Shown here one piece after another: positions 45 to 16,977 of a stretch of DNA of 64,000 nucleotides. This stretch comes from an uncultured Erythrobacter sp. (GTDB lineage Bacteria; Pseudomonadota; Alphaproteobacteria; Sphingomonadales; Sphingomonadaceae): positions 124,001 to 188,000 of the forward strand of contig CANMUS010000005.1 in NCBI GenBank assembly GCA_947501215.1, in the 5' to 3' direction. The translations under genes were made by a program, and so were the position numbers. Numbering within the stretch: position 1 is the stretch's first letter; each line of letters opens with the position of its first letter. The notes under the pieces were generated by a model. The model was given only the letters and a program-made list of their open reading frames with translations. It did not search any database and was not told where the DNA came from.

Positions 45-3000
45 ATGGCGCGGTTCTTCATCGACAGGCCGATTTTTGCCTGGGTGGTTTCGCTCGGCAT
101 CCTGCTGGCGGGCTTTATCGCCCTGCGCGCACTTCCGATCGAACAGTATCCAGAGGTCGCCCCACCATCGCTGACCATCAGCGTCGTGTATCCCGGTGCG
201 GACGCAGAGACGCTCGAACAGAACGTCACGCAGGTCATCGAGCAGCAGCTCAACGGGGTGGAGGGTTTCCTCTACATGTCCTCGTCCAGCGGGTCGAACG
301 GAGCGGCGAGTATCACGCTGACCTTCGAGGCGGGTACCGACATCGATATCGCCCAGACCGAGGTGCAGAACCGCTTGAGCACGGTCGAGGCGCGCCTGCC
401 TGAAGAGGTCCGGCGACAGGGTATCACCGTGCGCCAGGCGAACGCCGGCTTCCTGATGATCGTCGCGCTCACATCGGAAAGCGGCGACCTTACGACTACC
501 GATCTGGGCAACATCGCTGCGAACCAGGTTGTGGACGAGTTGCGCCGGGTGACCGGTGTGGGCGATGTCACGCTCTTCGGTTCGCAATATGCCATGCGCA
601 TCTGGCTAGATCCCGAAGCGCTGGCAGCCTACAACCTGTCCCCAAGCGCAGTACTTGCCGCCATCCGCGAGCAGAATTCGCAGACCGCCGGCGGCTCGAT
701 CGGCGCCCGGCCGCTCGCCGATGGGCAACAGATCAGCGCGACCATCTCGACCGAAGGCCGGTTCACCACCGTCGAAGAGTTCGAGAACATCATTCTTCGC
801 GCCAATTCCGGCGCGGCAGTGGTAAGGCTTGGCGAGGTTGCGCGCGTCGAAATCGGTGCGCAAAGCTACGCCACTTCCACCACTCTCAACGGACAACCCA
901 TGGCGGGGATGGCGATCCAGTTGGGGACCGGTGCCAACGCGCTTGCCGCTGCAGGGGGCGTGAAGGAGCGTCTCGCCGAAATCGCGCCCGGTCTTCCGGG
1001 AGACGTAAGCTGGTCGATCCCTTACGATACGACGCCTTTCGTTCAGGCTTCGGTGGAAGAAGTGGTGAAGACCTTGGTCGAGGCCATGGTGCTGGTCTTC
1101 CTCGTCATGTTCCTGTTCCTGCAGAACTGGCGAGCGACACTGATACCGACACTGGTAGTTCCGATTGCCCTGGCAGGCGCCTGTCTCGGTTTGTGGTTGT
1201 TCGGCTTTTCGATCAACGTGCTCTCGCTCTTCGGAATGGTCCTAGCGATCGGTATCCTGGTCGATGATGCGATCGTGGTGATCGAGAATGTCGAGCGCAT
1301 CATGCGTGAAGAAGGCCTCCCGCCCCTGCAGGCGACCCGCAAGGCAATGGGCCAGATCACCGGAGCGATCATCGGCATCACGCTGGTGCTGATCGCGGTT
1401 TTCGTGCCGATGGCCTTCTTCCCCGGCTCCACCGGGGGTATCTATCGTCAGTTCTCGGTTACGCTTGCCATTGCCATTTTCTTCTCGGCGTTCCTGGCGC
1501 TTTCCCTGACGCCGGCTCTTTGCGCCACCTTCCTGAAGCCGATCGCTAAAGGTCATGGGGAGGGCGGGCAGGTTGCGGTCGATACCGAAGCCGAAATGCA
1601 ACCCGGCTGGCGAGGACGCGTCGCCCAAGTGCGCAACAAGGCCGCCCGATTCTTTGGCCGGTTCAATGGCTGGTTCGCGCGGATGCAGGAGAAGTACGGC
1701 CGGGCCAATGACCGCATCCTGTCGCGGCCATGGCGCGGTTTCGCCGTATTTCTGGCTCTGGGCGCAGTAACGATTCTGCTGTTCATGCGCCTCCCGTCTG
1801 CCTTTCTGCCGACGGAGGACCAGGGGTTCCTCATCACCGCAGTTCAGGCGCCGCCGGGAGCGACGCAGGAGCGCACCGACGAAGCTCTGGAGCCGATCGA
1901 GGATTTCTGGTTGGCTCGCGAAGAGGTGGAAAACCTCGTTGTCGTGCGCGGATTCAGTTTCTTCGGTCAGGGTCAGAACAATGCGATCATGTTCGCGTCG
2001 TTCAAGCCATGGGAAGAGCGTACCGCCGAAGGAAGCGGCGCGGCCGAAATCCTCGGCCAGGCGATGGGCACTTTCGGCCAGTTGGACAGCGCGATCGCAT
2101 TCGTAATCCAGCCACCGGCGATCCAGTCGCTCGGGCAGGCAAGCGGCTTTACGCTGAAACTGCAGGATCGCGCAGGTCTTGGCCGTGAGACGTTGACGGC
2201 GGCGCGCGACCAATTGCTCGGCATGGCGTCGCAAAGCCCGATGATCGCCAACCTGCGACCCGAAGATCAGGGACCAAGCCCGCAGCTCGCGCTCGAGATC
2301 GACCGCGTCCAGGCACGGGCGCTTGGGCTCTCGCTTACCGATGTTAACGCGGCACTGTCGATCACCTTTGGCTCGGCCTATGCCAACGACTTCAACCGCG
2401 ACGGGCGTGTCTTGCAGGTGCTCGTCCAAGCGGACGCGCCTTATCGCATGAGCCCCGAAGACGTGCTGTCGCTGCGTATTCCGAACGCGGAGGGGCAGCT
2501 TGTGCCGTTCAGCGCCTTCGCCACTGCGGACTGGTCGGCAGCTCCGGCCAGCCTTGCACGCTACAACGGTTACCCCGCCATGACCCTTTCCGGCATGGCT
2601 GCTCCCGGTGAATCGTCCGGTGCTGCACTCGCGGAAATGGAACGTCTGGCGGAGCAACTGCCGCAGGGGATCGGCTATGAATGGACGGGTATCTCTTACG
2701 AGGAAAAGCAGGCCGGCGGGCAGATTGGCCTGCTGCTCGGCCTGTCGGTCGTTGTGGTATTCCTTGTGCTTGCGGCGCTCTACGAAAGCTGGGCTGTTCC
2801 TCTCGCGGTGCTCTTGATCGTGCCCATGGGCGTACTCGGTGCGGTGTTGTTCTCGATGCTGCGCGGTCTTTCGGCGGACGTCTATTTTAATGTCGGATTG
2901 ATCACGATCATCGGACTCGCGGCAAAGAACGCAATCCTCATCGTTGAATTCGCCATTGAGGAAGAAGAACGTGGCCTAAGGCGGATTGATGCAGTGAAAG

Positions 3001-3299
3001 CGGCCGCTCGCCTGCGCCTGCGTCCGATCATCATGACCTCGCTGGCATTCACTATGGGTATGGTTCCGCTCGTGCTCGCGAGTGGTGCCGGGGCCGCAAG
3101 TCGCATCGCGGTTGGTACCGGAGTGATGGGAGGAATGATCGCCGCGACCGTGCTCGGTATCTTCCTGATCCCGATGCTGTATCTCCTGGTGCGGCGAAAC
3201 GTCAGCCGCAAGCAGCCTGTCGCAACCGGCGGTCATGAAGGCGATACAGACCCAGTCGAGAAATCCGGTCCTGCAATCGAAGAAGGGCGCGCTCCATGA
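45..3299 (+). CDS. RND multidrug efflux permease, HAE1 family
   Basis: This 1084-residue inner-membrane protein is the proton-driven pump of a tripartite efflux system, close in length to AcrB/MexB (about 1050). The N-terminus MARFFIDRPIFAWV is the family hallmark. Residues 406-416 (VDDAIVVIEN) carry the paired aspartates at 407-408, which are the AcrB proton-relay positions, and the matching lysine lies in GLAAKNAILIVEFA near the C-terminus. Two large periplasmic loops separate the membrane blocks. A charged stretch near residues 505-545 lengthens the middle linker. The gene follows the adaptor tail and overlaps the outer-membrane gene by ATGA, so the three form one operon. Substrate cannot be read from sequence; drugs or detergents are typical for HAE1 rather than metals. 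Confidence 0.95.
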   Translation: MARFFIDRPIFAWVVSLGILLAGFIALRALPIEQYPEVAPPSLTISVVYPGADAETLEQNVTQVIEQQLNGVEGFLYMSSSSGSNGAASITLTFEAGTDIDIAQTEVQNRLSTVEARLPEEVRRQGITVRQANAGFLMIVALTSESGDLTTTDLGNIAANQVVDELRRVTGVGDVTLFGSQYAMRIWLDPEALAAYNLSPSAVLAAIREQNSQTAGGSIGARPLADGQQISATISTEGRFTTVEEFENIILRANSGAAVVRLGEVARVEIGAQSYATSTTLNGQPMAGMAIQLGTGANALAAAGGVKERLAEIAPGLPGDVSWSIPYDTTPFVQASVEEVVKTLVEAMVLVFLVMFLFLQNWRATLIPTLVVPIALAGACLGLWLFGFSINVLSLFGMVLAIGILVDDAIVVIENVERIMREEGLPPLQATRKAMGQITGAIIGITLVLIAVFVPMAFFPGSTGGIYRQFSVTLAIAIFFSAFLALSLTPALCATFLKPIAKGHGEGGQVAVDTEAEMQPGWRGRVAQVRNKAARFFGRFNGWFARMQEKYGRANDRILSRPWRGFAVFLALGAVTILLFMRLPSAFLPTEDQGFLITAVQAPPGATQERTDEALEPIEDFWLAREEVENLVVVRGFSFFGQGQNNAIMFASFKPWEERTAEGSGAAEILGQAMGTFGQLDSAIAFVIQPPAIQSLGQASGFTLKLQDRAGLGRETLTAARDQLLGMASQSPMIANLRPEDQGPSPQLALEIDRVQARALGLSLTDVNAALSITFGSAYANDFNRDGRVLQVLVQADAPYRMSPEDVLSLRIPNAEGQLVPFSAFATADWSAAPASLARYNGYPAMTLSGMAAPGESSGAALAEMERLAEQLPQGIGYEWTGISYEEKQAGGQIGLLLGLSVVVVFLVLAALYESWAVPLAVLLIVPMGVLGAVLFSMLRGLSADVYFNVGLITIIGLAAKNAILIVEFAIEEEERGLRRIDAVKAAARLRLRPIIMTSLAFTMGMVPLVLASGAGAASRIAVGTGVMGGMIAATVLGIFLIPMLYLLVRRNVSRKQPVATGGHEGDTDPVEKSGPAIEEGRAP

Positions 3300-4765
3300 C
3301 GCGATCGACGAGAAAGCTGGCCGCTCTGGCGATCGGTTCCAGTCTGCTTGCCAGCTGCGCGAGCATGGCCCCCGAGCACTCCCGCCCCGAGGCAGCCACC
3401 GCGCCTGCCTTCGATGCCGAGTACGGACCGGACGGGACAGTCGTCGCATCGCAATTGTCCTATCGCGAGTGGTTCGGTGACCCGCGATTGGAGCAACTCA
3501 TCGCGAGTGCGCTTGAAAACAACCGCGATCTCCTCGCCGCAACGGCAAGGGTCGAACAGGCCCGTGCGCGCTATCGGATAGAAGACAGCCGGCAATTGCC
3601 GGCGCTGGTTGGAGATGGCAGCGCCGTACGGACGAGGCAGCCGCTCTCGACCAATCCGGCGCTGGACACCGGGGATGTCGAAGGTGCCCCCGACTCAGTC
3701 ACCTTCAACCGCTTTGATGTGGGCGTAGGGGTTACCTCTTTCGAGCTCGATTTCTGGGGGCGAATTGCCAGTTTGAGCGAAGCTGCCCGCGCGGAATATC
3801 TGGCCACGGCTGCCGCGCAGCGGGCCTTCTACCTTTCGCTCATCGCCGACACCGCCAACACCTATTTCGAGATCGTGGAAACCGAGGAGCAGATCGCGCT
3901 GGCCCAGGCGACCGCCGAAAGCAGGCGCGAAGGTTTGCGGATCGCACGGCTACGCCTTGAAAACGGGGTGACCTCGGCACTTCCATACCGGCAGGCCGAG
4001 ACCTTGCTGACGCAGGCGGAACAGCAATTGGCAAGCGAACGACTGGCCTTGGCGCAACTGCGCAACCAGCTCGCCGTTCTGGTGGGCGGGACCATACCCG
4101 AAACTTTGCCAGAAGGCGTATCTCTTGCCGAGCAGGGTGACGAGCGCAGGCTTGCGGCTGGATTGCCGTCAGATCTCCTGCTGGTGCGCCCGGACATTAT
4201 CGCTGCCGAAGAACAGCTACGTGCTGCGCGCGCGAATATCGGGGCTGCTCGCGCGGCCTTCTTCCCGACCATTTCGCTCACCGGAAGTGCAGGACTGTCC
4301 TCGAACAGTCTCGACGGCCTGTTTTCGAGCGATGGGCTGGGCTGGAGTTTTGGGCCGTCCATATCTCTGCCGATTTTCGACTGGGGAGCGCGCGAGGCCG
4401 ATCTCGATCTGGCGCAGGCGCTCGAAGTCGAACAGGTCGCGAACTACGACCGCACCGTTCAGAACGCCTTCCGCGAGGTATCGGATGCGCTGGCAGGGAG
4501 GCGCTATCTCGCCGAACAATTGATGACCCTCGAAACCTCGGTAGAGGCGCAGCAGCAGATCGCCCGCATTGCCCGGTTACGCTACCGCGAAGGAGTGGCA
4601 GACTATCTCGAGGTCCTCGACGCCGAACGCAATCTGTTCAGCGCTCAGCAACAGCTTCTTGCCGTTCAGCGTGCTTGGTTGCAAAATCGTGCGACGCTGT
4701 TCGTTGCCCTCGGCGGCGGCGCCAATCCCAGCATTAAGCACAGGCCGCTTCCGATGGTTCGATAG
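3296..4765 (+). CDS. Outer-membrane efflux lipoprotein, NodT/OprM family
   Basis: This 489-residue protein is the outer-membrane channel of the RND system. A lipoprotein signal peptide ends in LLASC, so Cys21 should be lipidated. Two OEP repeats follow: the first half has long heptad-rich helices (YFEIVETEEQIALAQATAES), and the second ends with the duplicated helix pair and the typical GVADYLEVLDAERNLFSAQQ segment. The ATG overlaps the pump stop codon (ATGA), indicating translational coupling. No clear hairpin terminator follows. The family assignment is secure; the substrate is unknown. Confidence 0.93.
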   Translation: MTRSTRKLAALAIGSSLLASCASMAPEHSRPEAATAPAFDAEYGPDGTVVASQLSYREWFGDPRLEQLIASALENNRDLLAATARVEQARARYRIEDSRQLPALVGDGSAVRTRQPLSTNPALDTGDVEGAPDSVTFNRFDVGVGVTSFELDFWGRIASLSEAARAEYLATAAAQRAFYLSLIADTANTYFEIVETEEQIALAQATAESRREGLRIARLRLENGVTSALPYRQAETLLTQAEQQLASERLALAQLRNQLAVLVGGTIPETLPEGVSLAEQGDERRLAAGLPSDLLLVRPDIIAAEEQLRAARANIGAARAAFFPTISLTGSAGLSSNSLDGLFSSDGLGWSFGPSISLPIFDWGAREADLDLAQALEVEQVANYDRTVQNAFREVSDALAGRRYLAEQLMTLETSVEAQQQIARIARLRYREGVADYLEVLDAERNLFSAQQQLLAVQRAWLQNRATLFVALGGGANPSIKHRPLPMVR

Positions 4766-4840
4766 CCAAAAGCAGCCTGTCCGCTTTCGGCCCCACAAAG
4801 GCCGCTGGATCCAAATTTTCACCTTATGCGGTTGCTTTTC

Positions 4841-4862
4841 CCTTGGCCAATGACGGCCAAGG
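4841..4862 (+). promoter_or_regulatory. Hairpin that buries the ribosome-binding site of the small recombinase
   Basis: CCTTGGCC at 4841-4848 pairs perfectly with GGCCAAGG at 4855-4862 across the loop AATGAC. The 3' arm contributes AAGG to the Shine-Dalgarno AAGGAG (4859-4864), which lies just before the ATG at 4872. Folding would hide the ribosome-binding site, so it could restrain recombinase translation. It could equally be a recombinase or regulator binding site, or a weak terminator of the efflux operon. Confidence 0.5.
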
Positions 4863-4871
4863 AGAAAGACA

Positions 4872-5504
4872 ATGGGATACTCACGATTTGATCCTGCCAT
4901 GCAGAAGTGCGTGGCGTGGAACGCTGGAAAAAATGTCGGAACCAAGCGCCCGCTGACGCAAAAGCAGATTTGGGCGATCCGCTTCCATCTCGACCGCGAA
5001 GGGCTGTTGAGGGACAAGGCCCTCTTCGATCTCGCTATCGACAGTAAACTGCGAGGCTGTGATCTGTTCAAGATCAGGATCGGCGACGTCGTAGCTGGGG
5101 CTGACATCCGCAACCGAGCGACTGTTATCCAACAAAAGACCAGCCGACCGGTTCAATTCGAAATTACCGCAGACGTGCGCACCACTCTGATTGCTTGGCT
5201 GGAGCGGCGTGGTGGGTCCGTGAACGAATATCTCTTCCCGAGCCGCGTCGATCGCCAAGGCCACATGAGCACCCGTCAATACGCGCGCCTGGTCGACGAA
5301 TGGGTGACCGCCATCGGGTTGCGTAAGGCCGAGTACGGCACGCACTCACTGCGTCGGACAAAGGCGGCCATGATCTACCGCGCTACAGGTAACATCGGGG
5401 CAATTCAGATCCTGCTTGGTCATACCAAGATTGAAAATACCGTCCGCTACCTTGGGGTCGACGTAGAGGATGCTCTCCTACTCGCCGAGCGAACGGAGAT
5501 CTGA
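4872..5504 (+). CDS. Small tyrosine recombinase (catalytic domain only)
   Basis: This 210-residue protein matches the catalytic half of tyrosine recombinases. Visible active-site elements are the first Arg in SKLRGCDL, the beta-hairpin Lys in QQKTSRP, HSLRR (His and second Arg), GHTKIENTVRYLGV with the C-terminal His, and the nucleophile Tyr in the same strand. The N-terminal core-binding domain of XerC/D-like enzymes is almost absent (about 40 residues precede the catalytic fold), but the active site looks complete. A good Shine-Dalgarno (AAGGAG) precedes the ATG inside a hairpin. It may serve a mobile element or site-specific inversion. I saw no obvious inverted target repeats beside it. 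Confidence 0.85.
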   Translation: MGYSRFDPAMQKCVAWNAGKNVGTKRPLTQKQIWAIRFHLDREGLLRDKALFDLAIDSKLRGCDLFKIRIGDVVAGADIRNRATVIQQKTSRPVQFEITADVRTTLIAWLERRGGSVNEYLFPSRVDRQGHMSTRQYARLVDEWVTAIGLRKAEYGTHSLRRTKAAMIYRATGNIGAIQILLGHTKIENTVRYLGVDVEDALLLAERTEI

Positions 5505-5610
5505 CTCTGGGAGCGGTCGGTCAGCAGAAGTTGATCGACCGCTTCAGGGTCGAGCCTAAGCAGGTTGCCTTGGCCGATATGGGGTGGGAAGCGGACATGA
5601 GAGTCGAGGT

Positions 5611-6345
5611 TTATCCTTTCGGTGGGCGCGGGTCCTTGAAGGCTTCCCACATCTCCGGCTGAAACCAGTCGCATTGCAATTGCGGTTGAGCGGCCTTGAG
5701 CGCTTCGAATTCAGCTCGCGGGGCGTTAAGTGCAGTGCCAAGATACCTAAGGCTTGCCATGGTTCGCAAAGGAGCCAGGCTCTGGTCTTCAAGCTTGGTG
5801 TTGGTGAGGAAGAGCGCTTCTAGGGCAAAGCCTTCCAGCGGGGCGAGGGTTGGTATTTTTTGGGCAGTCCACATACTACCCTCGATGCCTAATACCTTAA
5901 GCCTACTGGCCAGCGGACGTAACCAATCAAGGTTGCTCAGATGCTTGGCGTTTTCAATGAACAGCCGTTCCAATTTCGGTAGAGCGAGGATCGGCGTGAA
6001 GTCTGCGATGTTGCGCGGCGAGTCGATCTTGAGAATCTTGAGTCCGACGAGTTCAGAGAGCGGAGCGAGATCGGTAGCGGTAACGGGATACTCCAGCGCC
6101 AAGTACTCCAAGCTTTTCAAACAGCTTAATCGCTCCAAAAAGTCCTGATTGACTGCTTGCGCCTCGAACTCACGCAATCCCTGGCGGTCTTCTATCCCAC
6201 GGTGCGACGTCTTAATCCGCGAAAGCCGGGCGCAACTCACATTCAAAGGAACGTCCTCGCCGCGCTCATACGAGCCACAATCAGGGCGGTGAGTATGAAG
6301 CCAAAACCGGTAGTGCTCACTTGGGCTTGTTGCGTTGCTCCCCAT
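5611..6345 (-). CDS. Leucine-rich-repeat protein of unknown function
   Basis: This 244-residue protein has four or five irregular leucine-rich repeats from about residue 70 to 215, visible as LKSLEYLALEYP, LVGLKILKIDSP, LPKLERLFIENA and MASLRYLG. There is no signal peptide, membrane segment or enzymatic motif. The region is less GC-rich than the flanking genes, with more AT-rich codons, which suggests acquired cargo. It has no operon partner: the recombinase converges from the left and the ParB-module terminator lies to the right. Such proteins usually mediate protein binding; immunity or effector-partner roles are possible, but nothing here shows one. Confidence 0.7.
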   Translation of the reverse strand: MGSNATSPSEHYRFWLHTHRPDCGSYERGEDVPLNVSCARLSRIKTSHRGIEDRQGLREFEAQAVNQDFLERLSCLKSLEYLALEYPVTATDLAPLSELVGLKILKIDSPRNIADFTPILALPKLERLFIENAKHLSNLDWLRPLASRLKVLGIEGSMWTAQKIPTLAPLEGFALEALFLTNTKLEDQSLAPLRTMASLRYLGTALNAPRAEFEALKAAQPQLQCDWFQPEMWEAFKDPRPPKG

Positions 6346-6463
6346 AGATGTTCAGTAGCGTTACTCTACAGATGTCCGCAATGGGGTCGTTAGCCGATTG
6401 ACAGCTTTTCGCGTCGTGGTTCGGATAGCGGACCGTCCGTTACCGGCCCAAATTCTGACATGA

Positions 6464-6498
6464 AAAAGGCGGTCCGTCCCAATTGGGACGGACCGCCC
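6464..6498 (-). terminator. Rho-independent terminator of the ParB/helicase/Toprim operon
   Basis: GGCGGTCCGTCCC (6469-6481) and its perfect complement (6486-6498) form a 13-bp stem with loop AATT. On the minus strand it is followed by five T residues (6468-6464). It lies about 30 bases past the ParB-like stop codon, so it ends the minus-strand module. Confidence 0.9.
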
Positions 6499-6526
6499 AC
6501 CGAGCGACCTCGACCTGTCAGGAGGG

Positions 6527-8500
6527 TCAGGCAGCCTGCTCGGCAATTTCGTCTGTCGCATCGTCGCTGACTGCCTCGTCGACTTCGACATCAATCGGCG
6601 CGACCTCCTGAGCAGCAGTGAACAGCATGATCGCAGGAACCCAGGCTTGCGCCCGCTCCTTGACCTCGGCCTCGCCGATGAAGTTGCCTGAGAAGATGCG
6701 CTCGGCTGCGCTCGCAAGCTCAGCCTTCTTCGAAGCAGCGTATCGGCTGACCAGCTCCGGACCACCCGTAGCATCGAGCGCTTCGAGCGTGCGAGCCTTG
6801 GCCACGCGGTCGAAATAGTTTGCCGCGGTGGGACGCCACCAATGCGCGGTTTCGATTTCCAGAAGTGCCCCGAGCGCTTCGTGCATGGGCACCGAACGAT
6901 CGCCTTCGCAGGCTAGGCTGGCGACGAGCGTGCGCGAGACGACATGACCAAGCCAGGCCGAACGCGCCTCATCGGAAAGCGACCGGAACCTGGCAAACCG
7001 CTCGACGTCGGTCTCGCCCGAGCGCCAGCTTTCGTCGAGCGAACCAGCGAACTCGGCCAGAGCAGCGCTCGCCGGTGCATCCTTGGCCTCAAACCCGGCA
7101 ACCGGTCCAGACGCGATGGAGCCGACAAGCGTCGATGCCTTTCTGGCGCGCCAGTCGTGCCCATCGGCATCCGCGAGCGTGAAGACCATGAAGTCGAGCG
7201 CCAGTGCCGGATCGTTAGCGAGATGGATCGCCAGGATATCGCGGCGCTGCATTGCGAGTTCGTCGAGCAGGCGCTGCGAAAGCGAGCTGCCCTTGGGTTT
7301 AACCGCTCCGCTTTCTTCGACTGCCTCCACCACACCTTCGTCAGCGATGACTTCGGTCTCGGTGTAGAACTGCGGGACCAAGGTCGGCTCGCCATTGCGC
7401 GAGAGGATAAGGAAGGCACCGGCCTCGGGTTTCAGCTCGTCGGCGAGCACGGGCGGCCGGTCATTGAGCGCGCGCATGGCGCGGTCGATGACGACGAGTT
7501 CCTGTTCGGCCTTGGCGACCTCGTCCTCGTGGCTGTCCTCGTCTTCGAGCACGGCGGCGACGCGGTCGTAGTCGGCCTCGAGCTCGCCAAGTTCCTTCGC
7601 TTCCTGTTCCGTCATCGGCGCAGGCTCGCAAGGCAGACGGCTCAGACCTTCGACAAGGTCGTGACTGACATAGGTGCCCAGCGTCGGCCGAACCCAGGCA
7701 AGGCCATATTCGAGCGCAGCCTTTTTTGCCGCCTCTTCCATGGCCTTGTGCGCGAGGTCCTCGAGCAGCGCGACATCGATCCAGCTCTCGCTGGCGTCAT
7801 CGTCGAAGAGTTCGCGTTCGATCCGGCCACCCGCACCGATGTACGCATCGCGTCCGACCAAAACAGCTCGCGGATCAGAACCGCGCACCGTGGCATCGAG
7901 CACCATGCGGCGGATTGTATCGGGCGTGATCTGGTACCAGGCATCCTGCAGCTCGGCATAGACATGCGCCTGGCGCTCGACGTCGGAAATCGCGCCGTAG
8001 GCCTTGGCCATATCGAGCGTGATCGTGCCTTCGGCGAGCGCTTCGAAAACGCAAGGCGCGAGGCTTGCGAGGCGCAGACGTCCTTCGACGAAACGGACCG
8101 TGAGGCCGAAGCGGCGCGCCACGTCTTCAGGGGTAGCGCCTGCTTCGATGATGGAGGCGAAGGCCTGCGCCTCGTCGGCCGGGTTCATTGCGAGACGCTG
8201 GAAATTCTCGGCAAGGCTGGCTTCGCGCACTTCGCTTTCCTCGCCTTCGATGACGAGGCAGGTGACCTCGTGGTTCTCGGGCAAGGTGCCCTCTTCGGCC
8301 AGCGCCAGCAGCGCGGCGAGACGGCGACCGCCGGCCTCGACCTCGAACTTGCCGCGCTTTCCTTTGCGTACGACGAGGTTCTGCAGCAGGCCGCGCGCGG
8401 CGATGTCTGCCCGCAGCTGGAGGTCGGCCAGCACGTCGTTCGACTTGCGAACGTTACGCGGGCTGGGAACAAGCTTCTTCAAGGGGATCGACTGGATCAT
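6527..8500 (-). CDS. Large ParB/RepB-like nuclease-fold protein of an integrative element
   Basis: This 657-residue protein begins with a ParB N-terminal fold (residues 1-100: SIPLKKLVPSPRNVRKS, then EAGGRRLAALLAL, a GxRR form of the ParB GERR box). A central helix-turn-helix region follows (ATPEDVARRFGLTVRFVEGRLRLASL, about 115-145). The C-terminal 400 residues include an acidic coiled-coil stretch and no fold I recognise. Canonical ParB is about 300 residues, and no ParA gene is present, so a simple partition role is doubtful. ATG at 8500 was chosen because AGGAGAA lies 7 bases upstream; a longer frame has no such signal. It is the last gene of the Toprim-helicase-ParB set seen on many alphaproteobacterial plasmids and integrative elements. 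Its function there is not established. Confidence 0.82.
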   Translation of the reverse strand: MIQSIPLKKLVPSPRNVRKSNDVLADLQLRADIAARGLLQNLVVRKGKRGKFEVEAGGRRLAALLALAEEGTLPENHEVTCLVIEGEESEVREASLAENFQRLAMNPADEAQAFASIIEAGATPEDVARRFGLTVRFVEGRLRLASLAPCVFEALAEGTITLDMAKAYGAISDVERQAHVYAELQDAWYQITPDTIRRMVLDATVRGSDPRAVLVGRDAYIGAGGRIERELFDDDASESWIDVALLEDLAHKAMEEAAKKAALEYGLAWVRPTLGTYVSHDLVEGLSRLPCEPAPMTEQEAKELGELEADYDRVAAVLEDEDSHEDEVAKAEQELVVIDRAMRALNDRPPVLADELKPEAGAFLILSRNGEPTLVPQFYTETEVIADEGVVEAVEESGAVKPKGSSLSQRLLDELAMQRRDILAIHLANDPALALDFMVFTLADADGHDWRARKASTLVGSIASGPVAGFEAKDAPASAALAEFAGSLDESWRSGETDVERFARFRSLSDEARSAWLGHVVSRTLVASLACEGDRSVPMHEALGALLEIETAHWWRPTAANYFDRVAKARTLEALDATGGPELVSRYAASKKAELASAAERIFSGNFIGEAEVKERAQAWVPAIMLFTAAQEVAPIDVEVDEAVSDDATDEIAEQAA

Positions 8501-8603
8501 TGGTGTTCTCCTGATGGATTGAAGGCGCCAGTGAGGATCACTTGGCCCACAAGCCCAAAGGGCTCCCTCCACTCTCATTCCGAGACTGGGGTCTCCCGAG
8601 GGA

Positions 8604-11600
8604 TCAGGCGGCTAGCGCAGGGAGGACGGACGAGGCTCTCGACACCGGCACGAACAGCCGCGTGCGGTAGCGGATGATCTCGGTGAAGCAGCCCTTGCCC
8701 TTGTACCAGTCGAGCCGATCGGGCGAAAATCCGGTCAGTTCAAGGCGCTGTTCGCCTCCGACCAGCGAGCGCTTCACGGTGAGTGGATCGTGGCTTGCAA
8801 GGTCCAGCGGTTTGCCGCTTTCGAGGACGAGGTCGCCGATCTGGTCCGGCGCCGGACCGGTAACTCCGGAAAGACCAAAGGTATCGGCGATTGCGGCGAG
8901 ATCGATATCGAGCACTTCGCGACCGATGATCGACTGGCCGTCCTCGGCAACGAGCCGGGTGACGCGGACATGATCGCCGGGCAGGCGCTTCCAGACAGGA
9001 AGCAGCAGTCCGGTGGCGAGATGGACGCGCTCGGTCACCGGTGACTTGGCCGCTTCCTCTTCCTCGGCCAGCCAGGCGCTGGTGAACGCTGTGACGCCAA
9101 TTTCCTCCCAGTGGCTCTCACCAAGTGCTTCAAGCGTCCAGTTCGCGGAATTGAGCGGACGCAGAAGGCGTCGGCGTTCGACCACGGTCCCGTCGTCGGC
9201 GATGAGGCGCCGGGCTGGAACAGACAGCGCGACCTTGCCCGAGCGCGCATTGCGCAAGGGGATCGCGTGCGCGCTGCCGATCTCGTGCATCCGCACCAGG
9301 CGCTGCAACCGCAGAGGCCGAAGGTACCTTACCACCTCGAGCGAGACGAGGCGGGTCTCCGCTCCGGTCACGGGGTCGGTGCGCAGGAGCTCATCGGCGA
9401 GGACCGTGAAGCGATCGACCCTGATGGTTTCCAGTCCCTGGTCGAGCGTTCCGGCCTCGCGCGCGGCTTCGATCCGCGCTTCCACCAGCCCGAGATACTC
9501 GTCGAATATGGCGTTCTGCAGCGCGATCGGCAGCGCGAGGATGCGGTTGAGCCAGCGCTGGATCGTGGGGAGATTGTCGGTCAGCCCGCCATCGGGATTT
9601 TCAAGCCGGAGGCCGGTGCGCTCCACGAAGTTGCCGAAGCTCGTGGCCTCTAGCTTGCCGTCATAGAGCAGCTGGAACCAGCGGCTGAGCGCGTCGCGTG
9701 CATAGTCGCTTTCGAGATTGTCTGCCGGATCGAACAGGTTCTGTCCGCCGGTCTGGCGCTGACCTCGCGTGAGCGCGCCCAATGCATCGAGCCTGCGGGC
9801 AATGGTCGAGATGAAGCGGCGCTCGCCCTTCACATCGGTGGTGACCGGGCGGAACAGCGGGGCCGAGGCCTGGTTGGTGCGGTTGGTGCGGCCGAGCCCC
9901 TGGATGGCGTTGTCAGCGCGCCAGCCCGGCTCGAGCAGGAAATGAACCCGGCGCTGCTGGTTCCTGGCGCCCAAATCAGCATGGTAGGAACGCCCAGTCC
10001 CGCCCGCATCCGAAAAGACCAGGATGCGCTTAATTCCTTCCATGAAGCTTTGCGCTTCTGCCACGTTGGCGCTTGGGCTTCGCCGTTCGAGGCGCTGCTG
10101 GCCATCGCGCCCCAGGACAAGCCTGCGGGTTCGGCCTGTGACCTCGGCCACGGCTTCGGTTCCAAAGTGCTCGATGATCGCATCGAGCGCTGTGGCGATC
10201 GGCGGCAGCGCGCAGAGTTGCTCGATCAGTGCATCGCGTGCTGCCACGGCGCGCGGGCAGAAAACGGGATTGCCCTCCCCGTCGCTCATCGCCTCGGAGC
10301 GAAGATTGCCATCCTCGTCGGCGAAGACCTGCATCAGGCGCACCGGGAAGCTCTTCGCAAGATAGTCGATGACGTATTCACGCGGCGAGAGATCGATATC
10401 GAGCGCTTCGCGTTCCTCGTCGGAGAGGTCGGCGAGGCGCCGGTCGAGCATAGCCTCGGCGGTCGAGACCAGCTGCACGACAACCGAATGGTCTTCGCCA
10501 AGCGCCGCTTCCATCGCGGGGATCAGGCTCGGCAGTTTCATGGAGAGCAGGAGCTGGGCAAAGAAGCGCTGCTTGGTGCCTTCGAAGATCGACAGCGCCG
10601 CAGCCTTGGCGTTGCGGTTGAGCGTATCGCCGCTGTCCTCGTCGACCACGCGGGTCGCTTCGAGCGCCGCCTCGAGATTGCGGTGAATGATCGCCCAGGC
10701 CTCGGCATAGGCATCGTAGATCCGCACCTGTGCTTCGCTCAGGTTATGTTCGAGGATTTCGTACTCGACCCCGGCGAAGGACAGCGCACGGGCGAGATAG
10801 AGGCCCTGCGCCTTGAGGTCGCGGGCGACGAGTTCCATCGCCGCGACGCCGCCAGCGCGGATCTCGGTCATGAAAGCCTCGTGGGTCGGGAAAGCAGTCT
10901 CGGGTCCCCAGAGACCAAGCCGGGATGTGTAGCCAAGGTTGGCGATATCCGAAGCGCCAGTGGCAGACGCGTAGAGCACCCGGGCGCGCGGCAGATGGTT
11001 CTGCAGCCTGAGGCCCGCCATGCCCTGTTCGGAGCCCCTGACCTTGCCGCGGTTTGAAGAGCCACGGAGTGCATTGGCCATGGCGTGAGCCTCGTCGAAG
11101 GCAATCACGCCGTCGAAACTCTCACCCGCCCAGGCAAGGATCTGGTCGAGCCGCGTATCCTCGGCACGCCCCGAGCACAGCGTCGGATAAGTGACGAAGA
11201 GAATACCTTCGGACATCGTGACCGGGTGGCCGAGTTTCCAGCGCGAGAGCGGCTGGAGATCGAGCGGCAGCCCGCCAAGCGCTTCCCAGTCGCGGCGTGC
11301 ATCTTCGAGCAGCGCCTCGTTCTTGGTGATCCAGACATGTCGGCGCTCGCCTGCGAGCCAGCGATCCATGATGACCGCGGCGATCTGCCGTCCTTTGCCC
11401 GCTCCGGTTCCGTCGCCGAGGAAGAAGCCTTGGCGGTAGGAGTGTCCGTCCTCGGAGAGTTCCAGCGAGGTGCCTTCCTGGCTCACGTTGAACTGACCCG
11501 GAAGATCGCGCGCAAATGCCTGGGCAGCGTAGACCAGTGTCTCGCATTGCGCTTCGGACAGCAGGCCATCGGCCTGCCAACATGCGGGAAGGCGCGGGCA

Positions 11601-12851
11601 AACATCGGGCTGCGGTGCCGCGACCGAACCCATGGCGACCGATTCCACGAGCGGGGTGGGATGGACCGGAGCATCTTCGAAGGCGATGCGGCTGGGCCGG
11701 TAAGGCAGGTATATGCCTGCCTGTTCGGGCACAGGCGCGGGGTCGGCGAGGACCGAATAGGCAAGGTCGATCGCATTCGCCGTGGCTGCTGGTGTCGCAG
11801 CGAACGGCGCCAGCGGCCGCACCGGCGCGCTTTGGGCCGAAGTCTTGCCAACGAGGCGCACTGGCTTGCCGAGCGGCAGGCGATAGATGTTGGCGGAGGT
11901 CTGTACGCGTGGCGGAAGCGCGGTGATAAGCTCGTGGAGCGAGATGAGGTCGGCAGTATCTCCGATGATCGCAGGCGAGGACGCAGTCGGCGTCTTGTCG
12001 AACACAACCAGGCGAACAGCGATCCCCGTCCCTGTCCGGCGAAACATCTGCTGCAGCCGAGCATCGAGGAGCAGCGATGCTTCGTCCTGTTCCTTGGCGA
12101 AGGTGGAGGCGTCGAAGCCTTCAGGCATAATGGCGACGATCCTCGCCCGATTAGCAGCGGCCCGGATTGCACCGCGTAGGTGACGCATAGCGGTCTCACC
12201 GTCCTTGCCGCGTTCCAGGCTGTGAGCGAACGGCGGGTTCGTCAGCACGGCAGACGGAACATGGCCGCGAAGCAAGTCGGCGATCAGTTCCCCGTCATGC
12301 GCAGTGATGGTGGCCGTGGGGAAGACGTGGGCCAGACCGTCTCGTCTTGCCGGATCGATCTCGTTGAGAAGCAGCGAAGCGTTCTGGAGGCAACCCCAGA
12401 GAGCAAGGGCACCATCGCCTGCGGACGGTTCGAGGAGCGTGTCTTGCGCGCAGACAGCTGCGGACTTCGCCATCAGCCAGGCCAGCATTGGCGGGGTCGA
12501 GAACTGCTGGAGCTCGACCTGTGCTTCGCTGCGAACGTGCCGCGGCGGCAAGGCTGCTTCGAGCCAGTCGAACCGCGCTTCGGCTTCGTGTACATTCGTC
12601 GCCAGATCGATCCGTGAGGACTCTCGAAGCCAGAGTAGTGCGGCGATCTCGACCGCGCTGTTGTAGTCGTCGATCGTCCAGGCACCTCCCCAGTCCAGAA
12701 CACCGGCCTCTTCGGCGAACAGCCCGGAAATGTCGGTACGGGTAAGATGACGTCCCGAAGCAAGAAGCGCGGCAACTCGGGTGCCAATGGCATAGGCCAT
12801 GGGCATGGACGGCAACTGCTCGCCGGCGGGAAACAAGTCAGATTGAAACAT
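8604..12851 (-). CDS. Adenine methyltransferase / Strawberry-notch helicase fusion
   Basis: This 1415-residue protein combines two enzymes. Residues 115-260 form a class I methylase: QFSTPP, the SAM loop EPSAGDGALA (about 142) and NPPF (about 205), the signature of N6-adenine methylation. Residues 440-1010 form an SF2 helicase of the Strawberry-notch type: GDGTGAGKGRQ (about 478, Walker A), FDEAHA (about 583, Walker B), LVFSDAGGTGRSYHAD, and QGLGRTNRTNQ (about 986, arginine-finger motif). A 400-residue C-terminal region follows. Phage P1 DarB and 'polyvalent' proteins of conjugative elements have the same pairing and protect incoming DNA, so anti-restriction is a reasonable inference. The start at 12851 has AGGAGGA upstream. 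It sits between the Toprim and ParB genes on the same strand. Confidence 0.88.
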   Translation of the reverse strand: MFQSDLFPAGEQLPSMPMAYAIGTRVAALLASGRHLTRTDISGLFAEEAGVLDWGGAWTIDDYNSAVEIAALLWLRESSRIDLATNVHEAEARFDWLEAALPPRHVRSEAQVELQQFSTPPMLAWLMAKSAAVCAQDTLLEPSAGDGALALWGCLQNASLLLNEIDPARRDGLAHVFPTATITAHDGELIADLLRGHVPSAVLTNPPFAHSLERGKDGETAMRHLRGAIRAAANRARIVAIMPEGFDASTFAKEQDEASLLLDARLQQMFRRTGTGIAVRLVVFDKTPTASSPAIIGDTADLISLHELITALPPRVQTSANIYRLPLGKPVRLVGKTSAQSAPVRPLAPFAATPAATANAIDLAYSVLADPAPVPEQAGIYLPYRPSRIAFEDAPVHPTPLVESVAMGSVAAPQPDVCPRLPACWQADGLLSEAQCETLVYAAQAFARDLPGQFNVSQEGTSLELSEDGHSYRQGFFLGDGTGAGKGRQIAAVIMDRWLAGERRHVWITKNEALLEDARRDWEALGGLPLDLQPLSRWKLGHPVTMSEGILFVTYPTLCSGRAEDTRLDQILAWAGESFDGVIAFDEAHAMANALRGSSNRGKVRGSEQGMAGLRLQNHLPRARVLYASATGASDIANLGYTSRLGLWGPETAFPTHEAFMTEIRAGGVAAMELVARDLKAQGLYLARALSFAGVEYEILEHNLSEAQVRIYDAYAEAWAIIHRNLEAALEATRVVDEDSGDTLNRNAKAAALSIFEGTKQRFFAQLLLSMKLPSLIPAMEAALGEDHSVVVQLVSTAEAMLDRRLADLSDEEREALDIDLSPREYVIDYLAKSFPVRLMQVFADEDGNLRSEAMSDGEGNPVFCPRAVAARDALIEQLCALPPIATALDAIIEHFGTEAVAEVTGRTRRLVLGRDGQQRLERRSPSANVAEAQSFMEGIKRILVFSDAGGTGRSYHADLGARNQQRRVHFLLEPGWRADNAIQGLGRTNRTNQASAPLFRPVTTDVKGERRFISTIARRLDALGALTRGQRQTGGQNLFDPADNLESDYARDALSRWFQLLYDGKLEATSFGNFVERTGLRLENPDGGLTDNLPTIQRWLNRILALPIALQNAIFDEYLGLVEARIEAAREAGTLDQGLETIRVDRFTVLADELLRTDPVTGAETRLVSLEVVRYLRPLRLQRLVRMHEIGSAHAIPLRNARSGKVALSVPARRLIADDGTVVERRRLLRPLNSANWTLEALGESHWEEIGVTAFTSAWLAEEEEAAKSPVTERVHLATGLLLPVWKRLPGDHVRVTRLVAEDGQSIIGREVLDIDLAAIADTFGLSGVTGPAPDQIGDLVLESGKPLDLASHDPLTVKRSLVGGEQRLELTGFSPDRLDWYKGKGCFTEIIRYRTRLFVPVSRASSVLPALAA

Positions 12852-12926
12852 GGCAATTCGTCCTCCTGATGGGGGCATCGGGACACGCCCTCTGCCGGAT
12901 CAGGAATTCGAGAAGCTTTCTCTCCT

Positions 12927-13841
12927 CTACCGCGCCGCTTTGCGGCGCAGCCATGCTGTAAGTTCATCGTTCCAGTCGGTGTCGCGTGAGGATGGTTTGC
13001 GAACGTGGATCGTCCGCCCTTCGCGGGCATAAGCGGCCAGGCCACGCGACGCGGCCAGCTCGCCGCCAGTATCGTGATCGACGAAGAGGTGAAGCTCGGT
13101 CACGCTCTCAGGCACGCTGACGAGACCGAAGCGCTCATTGCCCAGGGTCGCCCAGACGGGAATGCCGGTGAGAGCATAGGCCGACATCGCGCTCTCGACC
13201 CCCTCGGCAAGGCCAAGCTTGCCGGAAACTGGAGCGAAGAGACGAACAGCAGCTTCACCGAGCGCGCCGAGCGCGCGTTTCGGCTTTTCGAAAGCGGCCT
13301 TGCCTGAAGCCTCGGTAGACAGGAACGTGCGGTGGATGGCGATCGGGCCCTCGTCGAGGCTGACTGCCGCGATCATGGCGGGCAGAAAGCGGGCCCGTCC
13401 TTTCGGGCCAAGCGGCGTTCGTGGAAGGAAGCGGAGCGCCGGAGATGCGGCGAGGATGCCGCGGCTTTCAAGATATGCCTTTGCCGGACTAGCACGCAGT
13501 GGCTGTGCATCGCGCCAGATCCTCAGCGCTACCGCCGAGGGTTTGCAGGTGCTGGTTGATTCGGGTTCGTTGGTGGTCGCAGAACCTGAAAAAAGCGCCG
13601 GTGCCTCGAAACCTTCACGCGCCAGAGCAGCCAGCACGCTCTGCTGATCGCATCCCGCGAAACAGTGGAAGAGGATGGCCTGTCGGCCGAGCGACACACC
13701 GAGTGACGGCGTGCGGTCATCATGCGCGGGGCAACAGGCCATGCCCTTTGTGCCGGACCATTTGCCCCCTCGCGATTCGCAAATGCGACGGGCGGTCTCG
13801 GCAAGCGACCGGTTGGGATGAGTTTGGACAGACAGGGACAT
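12927..13841 (-). CDS. Zinc-finger/Toprim primase-like protein
   Basis: This 304-residue protein starts with a CHC2-like zinc ribbon (CCPAHDDRTPSLGV ... FHCFAGC, about residues 35-70), as in DnaG-type primases. It continues with a Toprim domain: the catalytic glutamate in LAEGVESAMSAY (about 205) and DHDTGG (about 255) for metal binding. It lacks the RNA-polymerase-like middle domain of full DnaG, so it is probably a nucleotide-handling accessory protein of a mobile element. GAGGAG lies 6 bases before the ATG. It is the first gene of the minus-strand module and is followed 75 bases later by the methylase/helicase gene. Confidence 0.88.
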   Translation of the reverse strand: MSLSVQTHPNRSLAETARRICESRGGKWSGTKGMACCPAHDDRTPSLGVSLGRQAILFHCFAGCDQQSVLAALAREGFEAPALFSGSATTNEPESTSTCKPSAVALRIWRDAQPLRASPAKAYLESRGILAASPALRFLPRTPLGPKGRARFLPAMIAAVSLDEGPIAIHRTFLSTEASGKAAFEKPKRALGALGEAAVRLFAPVSGKLGLAEGVESAMSAYALTGIPVWATLGNERFGLVSVPESVTELHLFVDHDTGGELAASRGLAAYAREGRTIHVRKPSSRDTDWNDELTAWLRRKAAR

Positions 13842-13979
13842 GCGAGCTCCTCAGCATGCAAAGTGGCCCCCTCATCAGCGTTCCTCTCCTCTCCCAAAGG
13901 CAGGCATTCGCGGCTTTCCTACAGGCACATGTTCTTTTTATGTTCTCTTTCGATTCGAATCAATGGAGCACAAGACGAG

Positions 13980-14564
13980 ATGAACTGCCTCAATTGTCTG
14001 ACCGCGCTAGCGGTCGCCTGTCTGGGGATGATCGCGACCTCCTCACAGCAAGTACGCGCCCAGGATTTCACCTTGTTCGAGCACGCGATCGTTCCGCCGA
14101 AGACGGGCCAGCAGCCGGCAAGGGAATATCTTCCTGCAATCTACCAGGCCGAGCCAGCAAACGTATCCTACCGGGAAGGCTTGTATATGGCGGCGATAGC
14201 CGAGGCTGAACGCCGTTACGGGCTTCCGACCAACCTGCTTCGTGCTCTTATCTGGGCTGAGTCCCGCTTCAATCCGATGGCTGTTAGTCCAGCCGGTGCT
14301 GCCGGGCTGGCTCAGCTTATGCCGGCCACGGCGAGAGAACTGGGCGTCCGGAACCGTCATGACCCTCTTGCATCGATCAACGGTGGCGCCAGGTACCTTC
14401 GCGATATGTTGGACCGGTTCGACGCAGTCCACCTGGCCTTGGCTGCTTACAATGCTGGCCCAGGTGCCGTCTCCCGATCACGCGGCATTCCCAACAATGG
14501 TGAAACGCCGCAATATGTCCGGTCTGTGTTGGGACGTTGGCAAGCAATTGGTAGGTACAATTGA
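13980..14564 (+). CDS. Secreted lytic transglycosylase (SLT family)
   Basis: This 194-residue protein has a signal peptide (residues 1-28, ending VRAQ) and an SLT/goose-lysozyme-like domain at 75-190. It carries the catalytic glutamate Glu94 in AESRFNP, then SPAGAAGLAQLMPATA and LALAAYNAGPGAV. It should cut murein glycan strands in the periplasm. An earlier in-frame ATG at 13929 would add 17 residues before the signal peptide, and I judge the 13980 start better. Such small transglycosylases (VirB1/TrbN-like) commonly accompany conjugation genes, and the neighbours (secreted nuclease, tiny ORFs, integrase) fit a degraded transfer region. No type IV secretion genes are visible. Confidence 0.88.
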   Translation: MNCLNCLTALAVACLGMIATSSQQVRAQDFTLFEHAIVPPKTGQQPAREYLPAIYQAEPANVSYREGLYMAAIAEAERRYGLPTNLLRALIWAESRFNPMAVSPAGAAGLAQLMPATARELGVRNRHDPLASINGGARYLRDMLDRFDAVHLALAAYNAGPGAVSRSRGIPNNGETPQYVRSVLGRWQAIGRYN

Positions 14565-14628
14565 CGAAACTACCTGATTTCCGGCTATTGTCTGAAATCA
14601 TGTGCCGGAATGAAGACGGACAACGCCA

Positions 14629-15180
14629 GTGAATGAGACCCCAGGTGAGCCGTTCGACTTTCGCAAGGCGTTGAAGGCACAGAAGCGCCGGAAGCTGAGA
14701 AAGGAGATCGCGTTGGGTTTGGGAGCATTCGCGATCGTATTTGCTGGAGGGATGCTGGCACTCAACTGGCCAGTCCATGATGCCAGCCTTGCTAACGACG
14801 ATCAGCAGCCTCAGGCTTTATTCCAGCAAGCAAGCTCCCCACAATTCGACATCTGCGGATCCATCCGGCGCACATGCGTCGTGGATGGAGATACTTTCTG
14901 GCTTGATGGCGTGAAGATCCGGATTGCCGACATCGACACTCCCGAGATCAGCGAGCCTCGTTGCGACTATGAATACCAGCTCGGCATGCGCGCGACACAC
15001 CGCCTTGTCGAATTGCTGAATGGCGGGCCCTTCGAACTGAGGACCATCGGTAGCAGAGACGAGGATCAGTACGGTCGCAAATTGCGGGTTGTAACGCGCG
15101 GCGGCCGCTCGCTTGGCGATCAGCTGGTCAGCGAAGGCCTGGCGCGAACCTGGACCGGGAGACGTGAACCATGGTGCTGA
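14629..15180 (+). CDS. Membrane-anchored thermonuclease (SNase family)
   Basis: This 183-residue protein has a basic N-terminus and one membrane anchor (about 28-50), then a staphylococcal-nuclease domain. VVDGDTFWLDGVKIRIADID holds the calcium-binding Asp and first Arg, DTPEI holds the general-base Glu, and DQYGRKLR holds the second Arg. All catalytic positions appear present. It should cleave nucleic acids outside the cytoplasmic membrane. The start is GTG at 14629. The stop overlaps the next ORF, so it heads a small translational unit. Nucleases of this type are often found in conjugative-element transfer regions. Confidence 0.88.
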   Translation: MNETPGEPFDFRKALKAQKRRKLRKEIALGLGAFAIVFAGGMLALNWPVHDASLANDDQQPQALFQQASSPQFDICGSIRRTCVVDGDTFWLDGVKIRIADIDTPEISEPRCDYEYQLGMRATHRLVELLNGGPFELRTIGSRDEDQYGRKLRVVTRGGRSLGDQLVSEGLARTWTGRREPWC

Positions 15181-15365
15181 ACCGCGATCAGGAATTGTGG
15201 GCCGTCGCGCTCTGGGTCGAAAAGAACCATGGCGAAGAGGGAACCGCGTATATCGCGCAGCAAATCCAGCGGCTATCCAACGAAGGGGGCGAGGCAGGCA
15301 TAGCAACGTGGAAGACTGTTGCTGAGCGCTTCGATCAGCTTAGCTGCCAAAGCTCTACGAACTGA
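15171..15365 (+). CDS. Small conserved-looking protein, 64 aa
   Basis: The ATG lies inside the last codons of the nuclease gene (10-base overlap), so translation is probably coupled. The 64-residue product (starting MVLNRDQELWAVALWVEKNHG) is acidic and helical with a repeated Trp pattern, and has no signal or membrane segment. It resembles the small proteins annotated as DUF6961 in sphingomonads, from memory and unverified. Function unknown. Confidence 0.68.
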   Translation: MVLNRDQELWAVALWVEKNHGEEGTAYIAQQIQRLSNEGGEAGIATWKTVAERFDQLSCQSSTN

Positions 15366-15376
15366 GGCTCGGCACG

Positions 15377-15481: not shown

Positions 15482-15501
15482 GAAGAAATTCGTTCTTCCG
15501 A

Positions 15502-16725: not shown

Positions 16726-16890
16726 GTGGGGGCCTTTTCATCTGGGCCTTTGCGAAACGGCCTCAAAAGGCCCACAAAAGTGTCTGGAACCCCCGAGAAC
16801 AGGCGGGACGATCCGGAACGATCCAAGGGCCAAATCCCTAGGATTTCTGCGGGTTTTATAGATTATTTGGGTGAACGTGAGAAGAACAAA
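16726..16890. other. Integrase-tRNA spacer with short repeats (candidate att/arm sites)
   Basis: This 165-base stretch has no gene. It holds GGGCCTTT twice as a direct repeat near 16733 and 16744, an inverted AAAGGCCC near 16765, and ACGATCC twice (about 16809-16824). Clusters of this kind are where arm-type integrase or excisionase sites lie. I found no second copy of the tRNA 3' end elsewhere in the window. Confidence 0.4.
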
Positions 16891-16977
16891 TGGTGCCCAG
16901 AAGAGGACTCGAACCTCCACGCCCTTGCGAGCGCCGCCACCTGAAGACGGTGCGTCTACCAATTCCGCCATCTGGGC
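16891..16977 (-). tRNA. tRNA-Leu(CAG)
   Basis: This 87-nt class II tRNA is read on the minus strand. The acceptor GCCCAGA pairs with TCTGGGC, followed by ACCA with an encoded CCA end. The D-loop is GCGGAATTGGTAGACGC. The anticodon stem CCGTC/GGCGG has loop TTCAGGT, with anticodon CAG (plus-strand CTG at 16941-16943). There is a long variable arm and a TTCGAGT T-loop. It is intact, so island insertion left or restored a functional 3' end. Confidence 0.96.

Follow-up and report, generated by a model that had tools for sequence, protein, structure and literature searches.

A Toprim, methylase-helicase and ParB gene block as the probable distal leading region of an F-type integrative conjugative element in an uncultured Erythrobacter sp.

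For mobile DNA of the kind considered here, the published record already supplies both an element family and a domain logic: integrative conjugative elements (ICEs) at tRNA-Leu-CAG of Erythrobacter have been described (PMC4919336), as has the domain logic of the methylase-SNF2 dyad, mobile-element Toprim primases and ArdC (Iyer et al. 2017, PMC5512222). Methylases and single-stranded DNA-binding proteins (SSBs) are enriched in the leading regions of conjugative elements, where anti-defence genes are also found (PMC11541004). We consider here three adjacent genes (hereafter the trio) on contig CANMUS010000005.1 of an uncultured Erythrobacter sp. (GCA_947501215.1), encoding a Toprim protein, a fusion of an adenine methylase with a Strawberry-notch-type helicase, and a large ParB-like protein. 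The window, meaning the whole stretch of 64,000 nucleotides that was analysed, covers bases 124001-188000 of this 190-kb contig; positions prefixed C5 are on the same contig in contig numbering. The trio probably forms the distal portion of the leading, first-entering region in an F-type ICE at tRNA-Leu(CAG), and the most likely role of its products, judged from their sequences, would be priming, adenine methylation and protection of element DNA on entry.

The window edge cuts an ICE. A tyrosine integrase adjoins tRNA-Leu(CAG), and the same contig carries relaxase, coupling-protein and F-type secretion genes 14-63 kb beyond the window edge; as direct-repeat ends were not found, the ICE label rests on gene content and on relatives. 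To the left of the window are ArdC (C5:114621-115601), a YAcAr/SLOG protein (C5:113015-113950), SSB (C5:112008-112406), TraD (C5:107740-110169), a TrwC/TraI relaxase (C5:104756-107680) and an S24 LexA-like gene (C5:104105-104740), with F-type secretion genes from approximately 60.9 kb of the contig. Profile scores on the contig were 279 bits for TrwC, 524 for TrwB/TraD, 440 for TraC, 310 for TraN and 101 for TraK, whilst TraE, TraB and the pilin were assigned from their positions and their likeness to annotated plasmid genes (L087). Copies of the integrase that are 98-99% identical occur beside the trio in other genera (e.g. loci L008, L035 and L081). Like the ICEs of PMC4919336, the element has its integrase right after tRNA-Leu-CAG, TraC-type conjugation genes and DNA-metabolism cargo; it differs in that the main text of that paper gives no match for ‘strawberry’ or ‘ParB’, and regulation is not discussed in its ICE section.

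A first-pass annotation of the window had reported no relaxase, ParA or type IV secretion gene, and had put the trio forward as a stand-alone, poorly described system. The absence holds within the window and, for ParA, across the contig, but relaxase and secretion genes are present outside the window, the relaxase having gone unseen because the window edge cuts the element. With conjugation genes on the same contig, relatives beside ArdC, YAcAr and SSB, and TraD-type genes in a fixed orientation, a free-standing trio system is not supported. The joint role in protecting, replicating or maintaining the element that had also been offered as possible fits the evidence, as part of a conjugative element rather than of something free-standing.

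The genes themselves are as first described: open reading frames (ORFs) for three same-strand genes of 304, 1415 and 657 amino acids (aa) are present on the minus strand and have Pfam support, with CHC2 zinc ribbon, DUF7146 and Toprim_3 domains in the Toprim protein, AAA_34 and Helicase_C_4 (Strawberry notch) in the helicase, and ParB_N and HTH_ParB in the ParB-like protein. No Pfam nuclease domain was found in any of them. The helicase start was taken as an ATG inside a 1424-aa ORF and the ParB start as an ATG inside a 683-aa ORF. All three genes are under purifying selection, with a median ratio of non-synonymous to synonymous substitution rates (dN/dS) of 0.09 for ParB (61 of 68 pairs usable), 0.12 for the methylase-helicase (63 of 69) and 0.17 for Toprim (59 of 72). 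The previously annotated terminator after ParB is also present, ending in five T (Table 1), and among 63 distinct regions downstream of ParB (that of the window included), 12 have a strict hairpin with a T-run, versus 0.2 expected from shuffles.

Order and orientation were compared across relatives. From a scan of species genomes, the best 80 of 252 loci were fetched with flanks of at most 10 kb, so that distal genes are under-counted in these 80, and the addition of three plasmids gave 83 loci for comparison. The trio is complete in 71 of the 80 fetched loci, and in all 71 the order is Toprim, methylase-helicase, ParB; in the other nine, the missing gene sits on the side of a contig end. The gap between Toprim and helicase is 76 bp in most loci and that between helicase and ParB 99-106 bp. 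After the trio and on its strand come ArdC (56 of the 83 loci), YAcAr (45) and SSB (23), orf146 also shares this strand (42), and TraD occurs in eight of the 83, downstream on the same strand in four (62-82%) and upstream on the other strand in four (31% matches). A survey of the family covered 149 genomes, 54 with a helicase match, and sought conjugation genes within 120 kb of 81 helicase places: a TrwB/TraD-type gene was found at 31 of these, downstream on the same strand in 29; other coupling-protein types were found at 19 further places, 16 of them downstream on the same strand; and TraN was downstream on the opposite strand at 22 of 24 places.

Plasmids extend this distribution, with helicase matches in 696 records (413 over at least 80% of the helicase), typed as 359 conjugative, 82 mobilizable and 255 non-mobilizable. 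In three annotated sphingomonad plasmids (pCHQ1, pTSSC1 and Croceicoccus marinus plas2), SSB or ParA plus a ribbon-helix-helix gene is followed by Toprim, methylase-helicase, ParB and an ArdC-like zincin. These plasmids thus share the trio order of the window, at identities to the window of 52-54% for the helicase, 42-44% for ParB and 36-44% for Toprim. At G122:C1 near 996270 (L177 and L178), Toprim and methylase-helicase (63%) occur with no ParB, ArdC or TraD match in 40 kb, this locus being a reduced or different version of the block.

The closest parallel to the ParB-like protein comes from plasmid F, which encodes a homologous 652-aa ParB in its leading region, between ssb and psiB: the two align end-to-end, with 29% identity over 651 aa (E 7e-40). 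The first-pass annotation was right that the protein is twice normal ParB size and lacks a ParA, as all seven ParA-family matches of the genome lie on contigs other than this one. Profile matches to ParB/Noc structures cover residues 3-219. The likeness to the F leading region includes, besides the full-length homologous ParB, co-oriented genes and the presence of SSB and an anti-restriction gene in the block; the differences are that the ParB operon here is led by a primase and a methylase-helicase, and that it has a LexA-type box, not an evident single-strand promoter hairpin. No convincing PsiB match came from the 80 loci or from the contig, where the best had E 0.026. In pED208, the secretion channel also carries the protein of corresponding position, ParB2, and the SOS response was not raised when ParB2 was deleted (PMC8406263); ParB2 is likened by position, the sequence comparison here being with the plasmid F protein.

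The N-terminal third of the 1415-aa protein, annotated as a methylase, gave no Pfam match at E 0.001. An AlphaFold model of residues 1-415 has a mean predicted local distance difference test (pLDDT) score of 70; most residues from 21 to 310 score 70-95, with dips near 101-120, 211-220 and 271-280, and values fall under 50 past residue 320. Foldseek against the PDB matched these residues to type I restriction methylases, EcoKI M, and the BseCI and TaqI methylases, and also to RNA methylases (best E 5e-11; query TM-scores of 0.28-0.43 among the matches listed), and on this model the N-terminal part is predicted to adopt a methylase fold. The motifs reported earlier as intact are indeed so: T119-P120 and N205-P-P-F of the methylase are invariant in 29 sequences, and among 73 homologues Walker A is kept in 73 and QGLGRTNR in 70, with the DEAH-type box reading FDEAHAM in 64 and FDESHAM in four; dead methylase or helicase residues were not seen in either alignment. 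The methylase part also matches viral family phrog_10691 (E 2e-18), and the sole helicase match among phage records is a weak one in a Bacteroides phage (23% over 40% of the query).

The comparison with phage P1 DarB made from the window alone stands at the level of motifs and domains. Like DarB-type polyvalent proteins, the window protein combines an adenine methylase bearing TP and NPPF motifs with a C-terminal SF2/SNF2-type ATPase, occurs in a mobile-element setting with ArdC and a Toprim primase, and has four predicted helices before the methylase (residues 18-31, 38-49, 60-77 and 87-100 in the model; PMC5512222). An hhalign comparison with P1 DarB aligns the methylase parts (probability 55%, E 1e-4). 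BLASTP against P1 DarB gives nothing significant (E 0.42), and P1 DarB has NVPF where the hhalign alignment places the NPPF of the window protein; the helicase here is of Strawberry-notch type and the protein has 1415 aa versus 2255 in DarB. The LPD36 domain is described as having four helices, the second and third of them separated by a GXGU motif (PMC5512222); this motif is absent from residues 1-120 of the window protein, which is therefore not classed as an LPD36 protein. That the methylase-helicase may work like DarB is a fair analogy.

In the Toprim protein, the features of mobile-element Toprim primases are all found: a CHC2 zinc ribbon, the Toprim acidic residues and the DaN- motif (DW-N here), the last of which marks mobile-element primases (Iyer et al., PMC5512222). 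Across 21 sequences C37, H40, C60, C64, E213-G-x-E216, D255-x-D257 and D289-W290 are invariant, and N291 nearly so.

Regulation of the trio can be approached through its promoter. GTTC-N7-GTTC is the LexA motif of the alpha-Proteobacteria (PMC3323433), and it is found (written below as GAAC-N7-GAAC) before both Toprim and the secretion operon. The region 5' of Toprim is poorly conserved except for a stretch with this box and a second motif, CTGTAGGAAA. Of 67 distinct Toprim upstream regions, 54 carry the box; these regions are related by descent and hence do not amount to 54 independent events. The box persists down to 56% Toprim identity and lies 93-106 bp 5' of the Toprim start (88 bp in L083). 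Control spacers of 6, 8, 9, 10 and 11 occur in none of the 67 regions and those of 4 and 5 in one each. It was absent from the three sphingomonad plasmid stretches fetched, in the vicinity of Toprim. Five boxes in the window versus 1.9 expected is not a significant count (6 of 100 shuffles reach five), and the evidence for the box is its conservation and position, not its number. For the secretion operon, 1500-bp stretches were surveyed at 27 loci from 22 genomes: two boxes at fixed distances are found in 19 loci and at least one in 22, these comprising 22 of the 22 loci with TraE at least 55% identical and none of the five more distant. Here, control spacers gave 9 of 27 for a spacer of 8, none for 6, and 3, 1, 0, 3 and 2 for spacers of 4, 5, 9, 10 and 11, respectively. 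A further box lies at C5:104021, 5' of the S24 gene, and of nine chosen chromosomal boxes five precede genes read as imuA-imuB, uvrA, radA, rmuC and a radical-SAM repair-like gene.

The LexA-type boxes thus suggest SOS control of both the trio and the secretion operon; as the trio box lies between divergent genes, it could serve the transglycosylase too. Sigma-70 consensus promoters numbered 0 in 5500-17100, versus 1.7 expected. The second motif, CTGTAGGAAA, stands beside LexA-type boxes at window 13915-13924, C5:60742-60751 and C5:60967-60976; it has 11 genome copies versus five for the reversed pattern, three of the 11 at entry or secretion promoters, and is a candidate regulator site or promoter part. 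Another GAAC-N7-GAAC match, at window 16873-16887, overlaps the attachment core at the tRNA 3' end and may be chance.

Taken together, the observed gene content and order, conservation, intact catalytic residues, co-orientation towards TraD and conserved LexA-type boxes can be read as follows. Genes transcribed towards the origin of transfer (oriT) can be read from the entering strand, and we take the position of oriT from the TraD-relaxase order, as in plasmid R388. In the transferred strand entering a recipient, or in the circular form made in the donor, the Toprim protein, given its domains, would prime complementary-strand synthesis. The methylase-helicase would travel along the new duplex by ATP hydrolysis, methylating adenines in cis and so blocking restriction enzymes, a protection suggested by DarB and by a proposal in PMC5512222. 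The large ParB, again on the strength of its domains, would load onto element DNA, and ArdC and SSB, as the next genes in line, would add further protection. Repression through GAAC-N7-GAAC would probably be exerted by LexA or the S24 (LexA-like) protein that the element encodes, such that single-stranded DNA, by raising the SOS response, would release the trio along with the secretion operon bearing like boxes. The case for such an entry module draws on the ICE context (relaxase, TraD, SSB, ArdC, TraC, TraN, TraK, integrase and tRNA), the order kept in 71 of 71 loci, the TraD-type gene downstream in 29 of 31 places, full-length similarity to F ParB, the methylase fold, kept motifs, purifying selection and boxes at both operons.

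Several points nevertheless weigh against this reading. No oriT was located, and the term ‘leading region’ therefore rests on gene order and orientation. The trio largely occurs within conjugation loci, an outcome which the first-pass annotation had itself set against an independent system; yet 24 of the 81 helicase places have none of the searched conjugation families within 120 kb, many of these being short contigs or fragments (29 places had no coupling-protein or TraN gene in that range, and five of these were subsequently found to have conjugation genes). Three such places on long contigs were examined over 40 kb each: at two the trio is accompanied by ArdC and YAcAr with no TraD match, and at the third Toprim, helicase and a transglycosylase occur with no ParB or ArdC match. 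The ParB structure model is poor (pLDDT 53), and deletion of pED208 ParB2 had no detected effect on plasmid transfer (PMC8406263). ParB also matches, over its whole length, a viral family of unknown function (phrog_7783, E 1e-61), Toprim matches the viral family phrog_510 (E 5e-34), and a distant phage link of single trio genes is conceivable from these matches. With respect to regulation, the box is absent from 13 of the 67 Toprim promoters, its genome-wide excess is modest (79 versus 58 for the reversed pattern), and four of the nine opened chromosomal boxes have no evident SOS gene. A Frpo-like single-strand promoter hairpin 5' of Toprim was considered and rejected, as the plus strand there has a poorer fold than shuffled sequence (z +2.08), 196 of 200 shuffles being at least its equal. 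Finally, with one attachment-core copy in the genome, this ICE copy may not excise.

Alternative functions must be weighed against the same observations. A donor-side role in replication and maintenance, with primase, helicase and ParB preventing loss of the excised circular ICE, is unlikely on present evidence, albeit the most credible of the alternatives: the composition of the trio would suit it, in one plasmid (L087) the trio is immediately preceded by ParA and a ribbon-helix-helix gene, and SXT/R391 ICEs reportedly replicate and partition. Against it stand the contig's lack of a ParA-family match, the end-to-end alignment of ParB with the F leading-region protein, and the methylase domain and ArdC/SSB neighbours, which point to entry; a trio role in both donor maintenance and entry is possible. 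An ordinary partition locus with passengers, as the ParB_N and HTH_ParB domains and the ParB/Noc profile matches over residues 3-219 might suggest, is very improbable for a ParB of twice the usual size, with no ParA-family match on the contig and with primase and methylase in constant order in all 71 complete loci.

It is similarly improbable, if slightly less so, that the trio is a host-protecting anti-phage system with the methylase-helicase as a modification/translocase pair. Methylase and SF2 helicase architecture, weak PADLOC matches of the Toprim zinc-ribbon part to a reverse-transcriptase system model (E 3e-5) and of the helicase protein to the mads_2 model (E 0.0012), a separate Dpd-like set in the same ICE, one opened locus lacking ParB and ArdC, and the viral-family matches all lean that way; no PADLOC match covers a large part of any trio protein, however, none has a Pfam nuclease domain, and the trio lies mostly beside transfer or leading-region genes.

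Returning to the entry module, a more speculative extension, tentative at best, is that SOS acts as the ICE's clock, with one signal relieving LexA (or the S24 repressor) at both entry and secretion boxes. Donor DNA damage, or single-stranded entry DNA in the recipient, would be the trigger; the same signal would turn on transfer in the donor and, once in the recipient, methylation, priming and the loading of ParB, and CTGTAGGAAA would mark an unknown co-regulator. This would contrast with plasmid F, where PsiB suppresses SOS. Among the open-licence literature matches listed for the trio and for SOS control of such ICEs, none described the trio with LexA boxes, and paired LexA-type control of entry and transfer operons is apparently new with respect to the literature searched. 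A recurrent, loosely annotated trio of alphaproteobacterial plasmids and ICEs would be explained as a likely entry module, and LexA-type boxes before transfer and entry operons would offer a regulatory link within an element family common in Erythrobacteraceae. Protection of incoming DNA by the methylase, if it occurs, would help explain how closely related elements cross genera.

Table 1. Features of the trio and of the surrounding element (window coordinates).
Feature	Position	Strand	Basis
Toprim primase-like protein, 304 aa (CHC2 zinc ribbon + DUF7146 + Toprim)	12927..13841	-	Pfam, invariant residues
Adenine-methylase + Strawberry-notch-type SF2 helicase fusion, 1415 aa	8604..12851	-	Pfam, AlphaFold/Foldseek, motifs in 73 sequences
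Leading-region-type ParB-like protein, 657 aa (ParB_N + HTH + long C-terminal part)	6527..8500	-	Pfam, F ParB homology
Intrinsic terminator 3' of ParB gene	6467..6498	-	Hairpin GGCGGTCCGTCCC-AATT-GGGACGGACCGCC then five T
LexA-type box GAACATAAAAAGAAC (GAAC-N7-GAAC), begins 104 bp 5' of Toprim start	13931..13945	-	Conservation
Second conserved promoter motif CTGTAGGAAA	13915..13924	-	Conservation; also beside secretion-operon boxes
Lytic transglycosylase (SLT), 194 aa from presumed signal-peptide start, divergent	13980..14564	+	Pfam SLT
SNase-domain protein, 183 aa, conserved beside integrase	14629..15180	+	Locus comparison
Tyrosine integrase, 407 aa	15502..16725	-	Pfam; relatives' copies
Probable attachment core, 36 bp, tRNA-Leu 3' end	16880..16915	.	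Recurrence in sister genome G169
tRNA-Leu (CAG), integration site	16891..16977	-	ARAGORN
Cargo between ParB and ArdC: RND efflux transporter, outer-membrane factor, short tyrosine recombinase	45..5504	+	

The 36-bp attachment core recurs at 100% elsewhere in a sister genome (G169); as for a second attachment site here, a 28-bp core is single-copy in the element's own genome (at up to three mismatches) and on the contig (at up to six). A left attachment site was not found, and in the sister loci tried the left tRNA flank had no match to the contig beyond integrase and transposase pieces and one short match. This ICE copy may be defective, and transposase genes near C5:57289-58481 (identified by eye) may account for the loss of its left end. 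In four sister genomes (G149, G163, G168 and G169), short copies of the tRNA-Leu(CAG) 3' end (94-100% over 28-36 bp) lie approximately 5-34 kb from the tRNA, a pattern suggestive of stacked elements at this site.

Other cargo lies to either side of ArdC. A stretch at C5:84816-103729 (locus L004) resembles a Dpd 7-deazaguanine DNA modification system, with PADLOC scores of 39 bits for QueC, 2628 for DpdJ, 1097 for DpdH, 33 for a DpdG-like protein and 803 for DpdF; a 124-aa neighbour, with no PADLOC match, looks QueD-like by eye. The short tyrosine recombinase (window 4872-5504; 210 aa, catalytic domain only) adjoins an LRR-like ORF (5611-6345), and neither was matched among the 83 loci compared. 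An RND efflux set occupies window 45-4765 and C5:122875-124041, between ParB and ArdC, its genes, like the transposase-like ORFs of the cargo, having been named from reading their translations. At locus L007, RND lies directly 3' of ParB at 89% identity, and the efflux set may therefore travel with the element.

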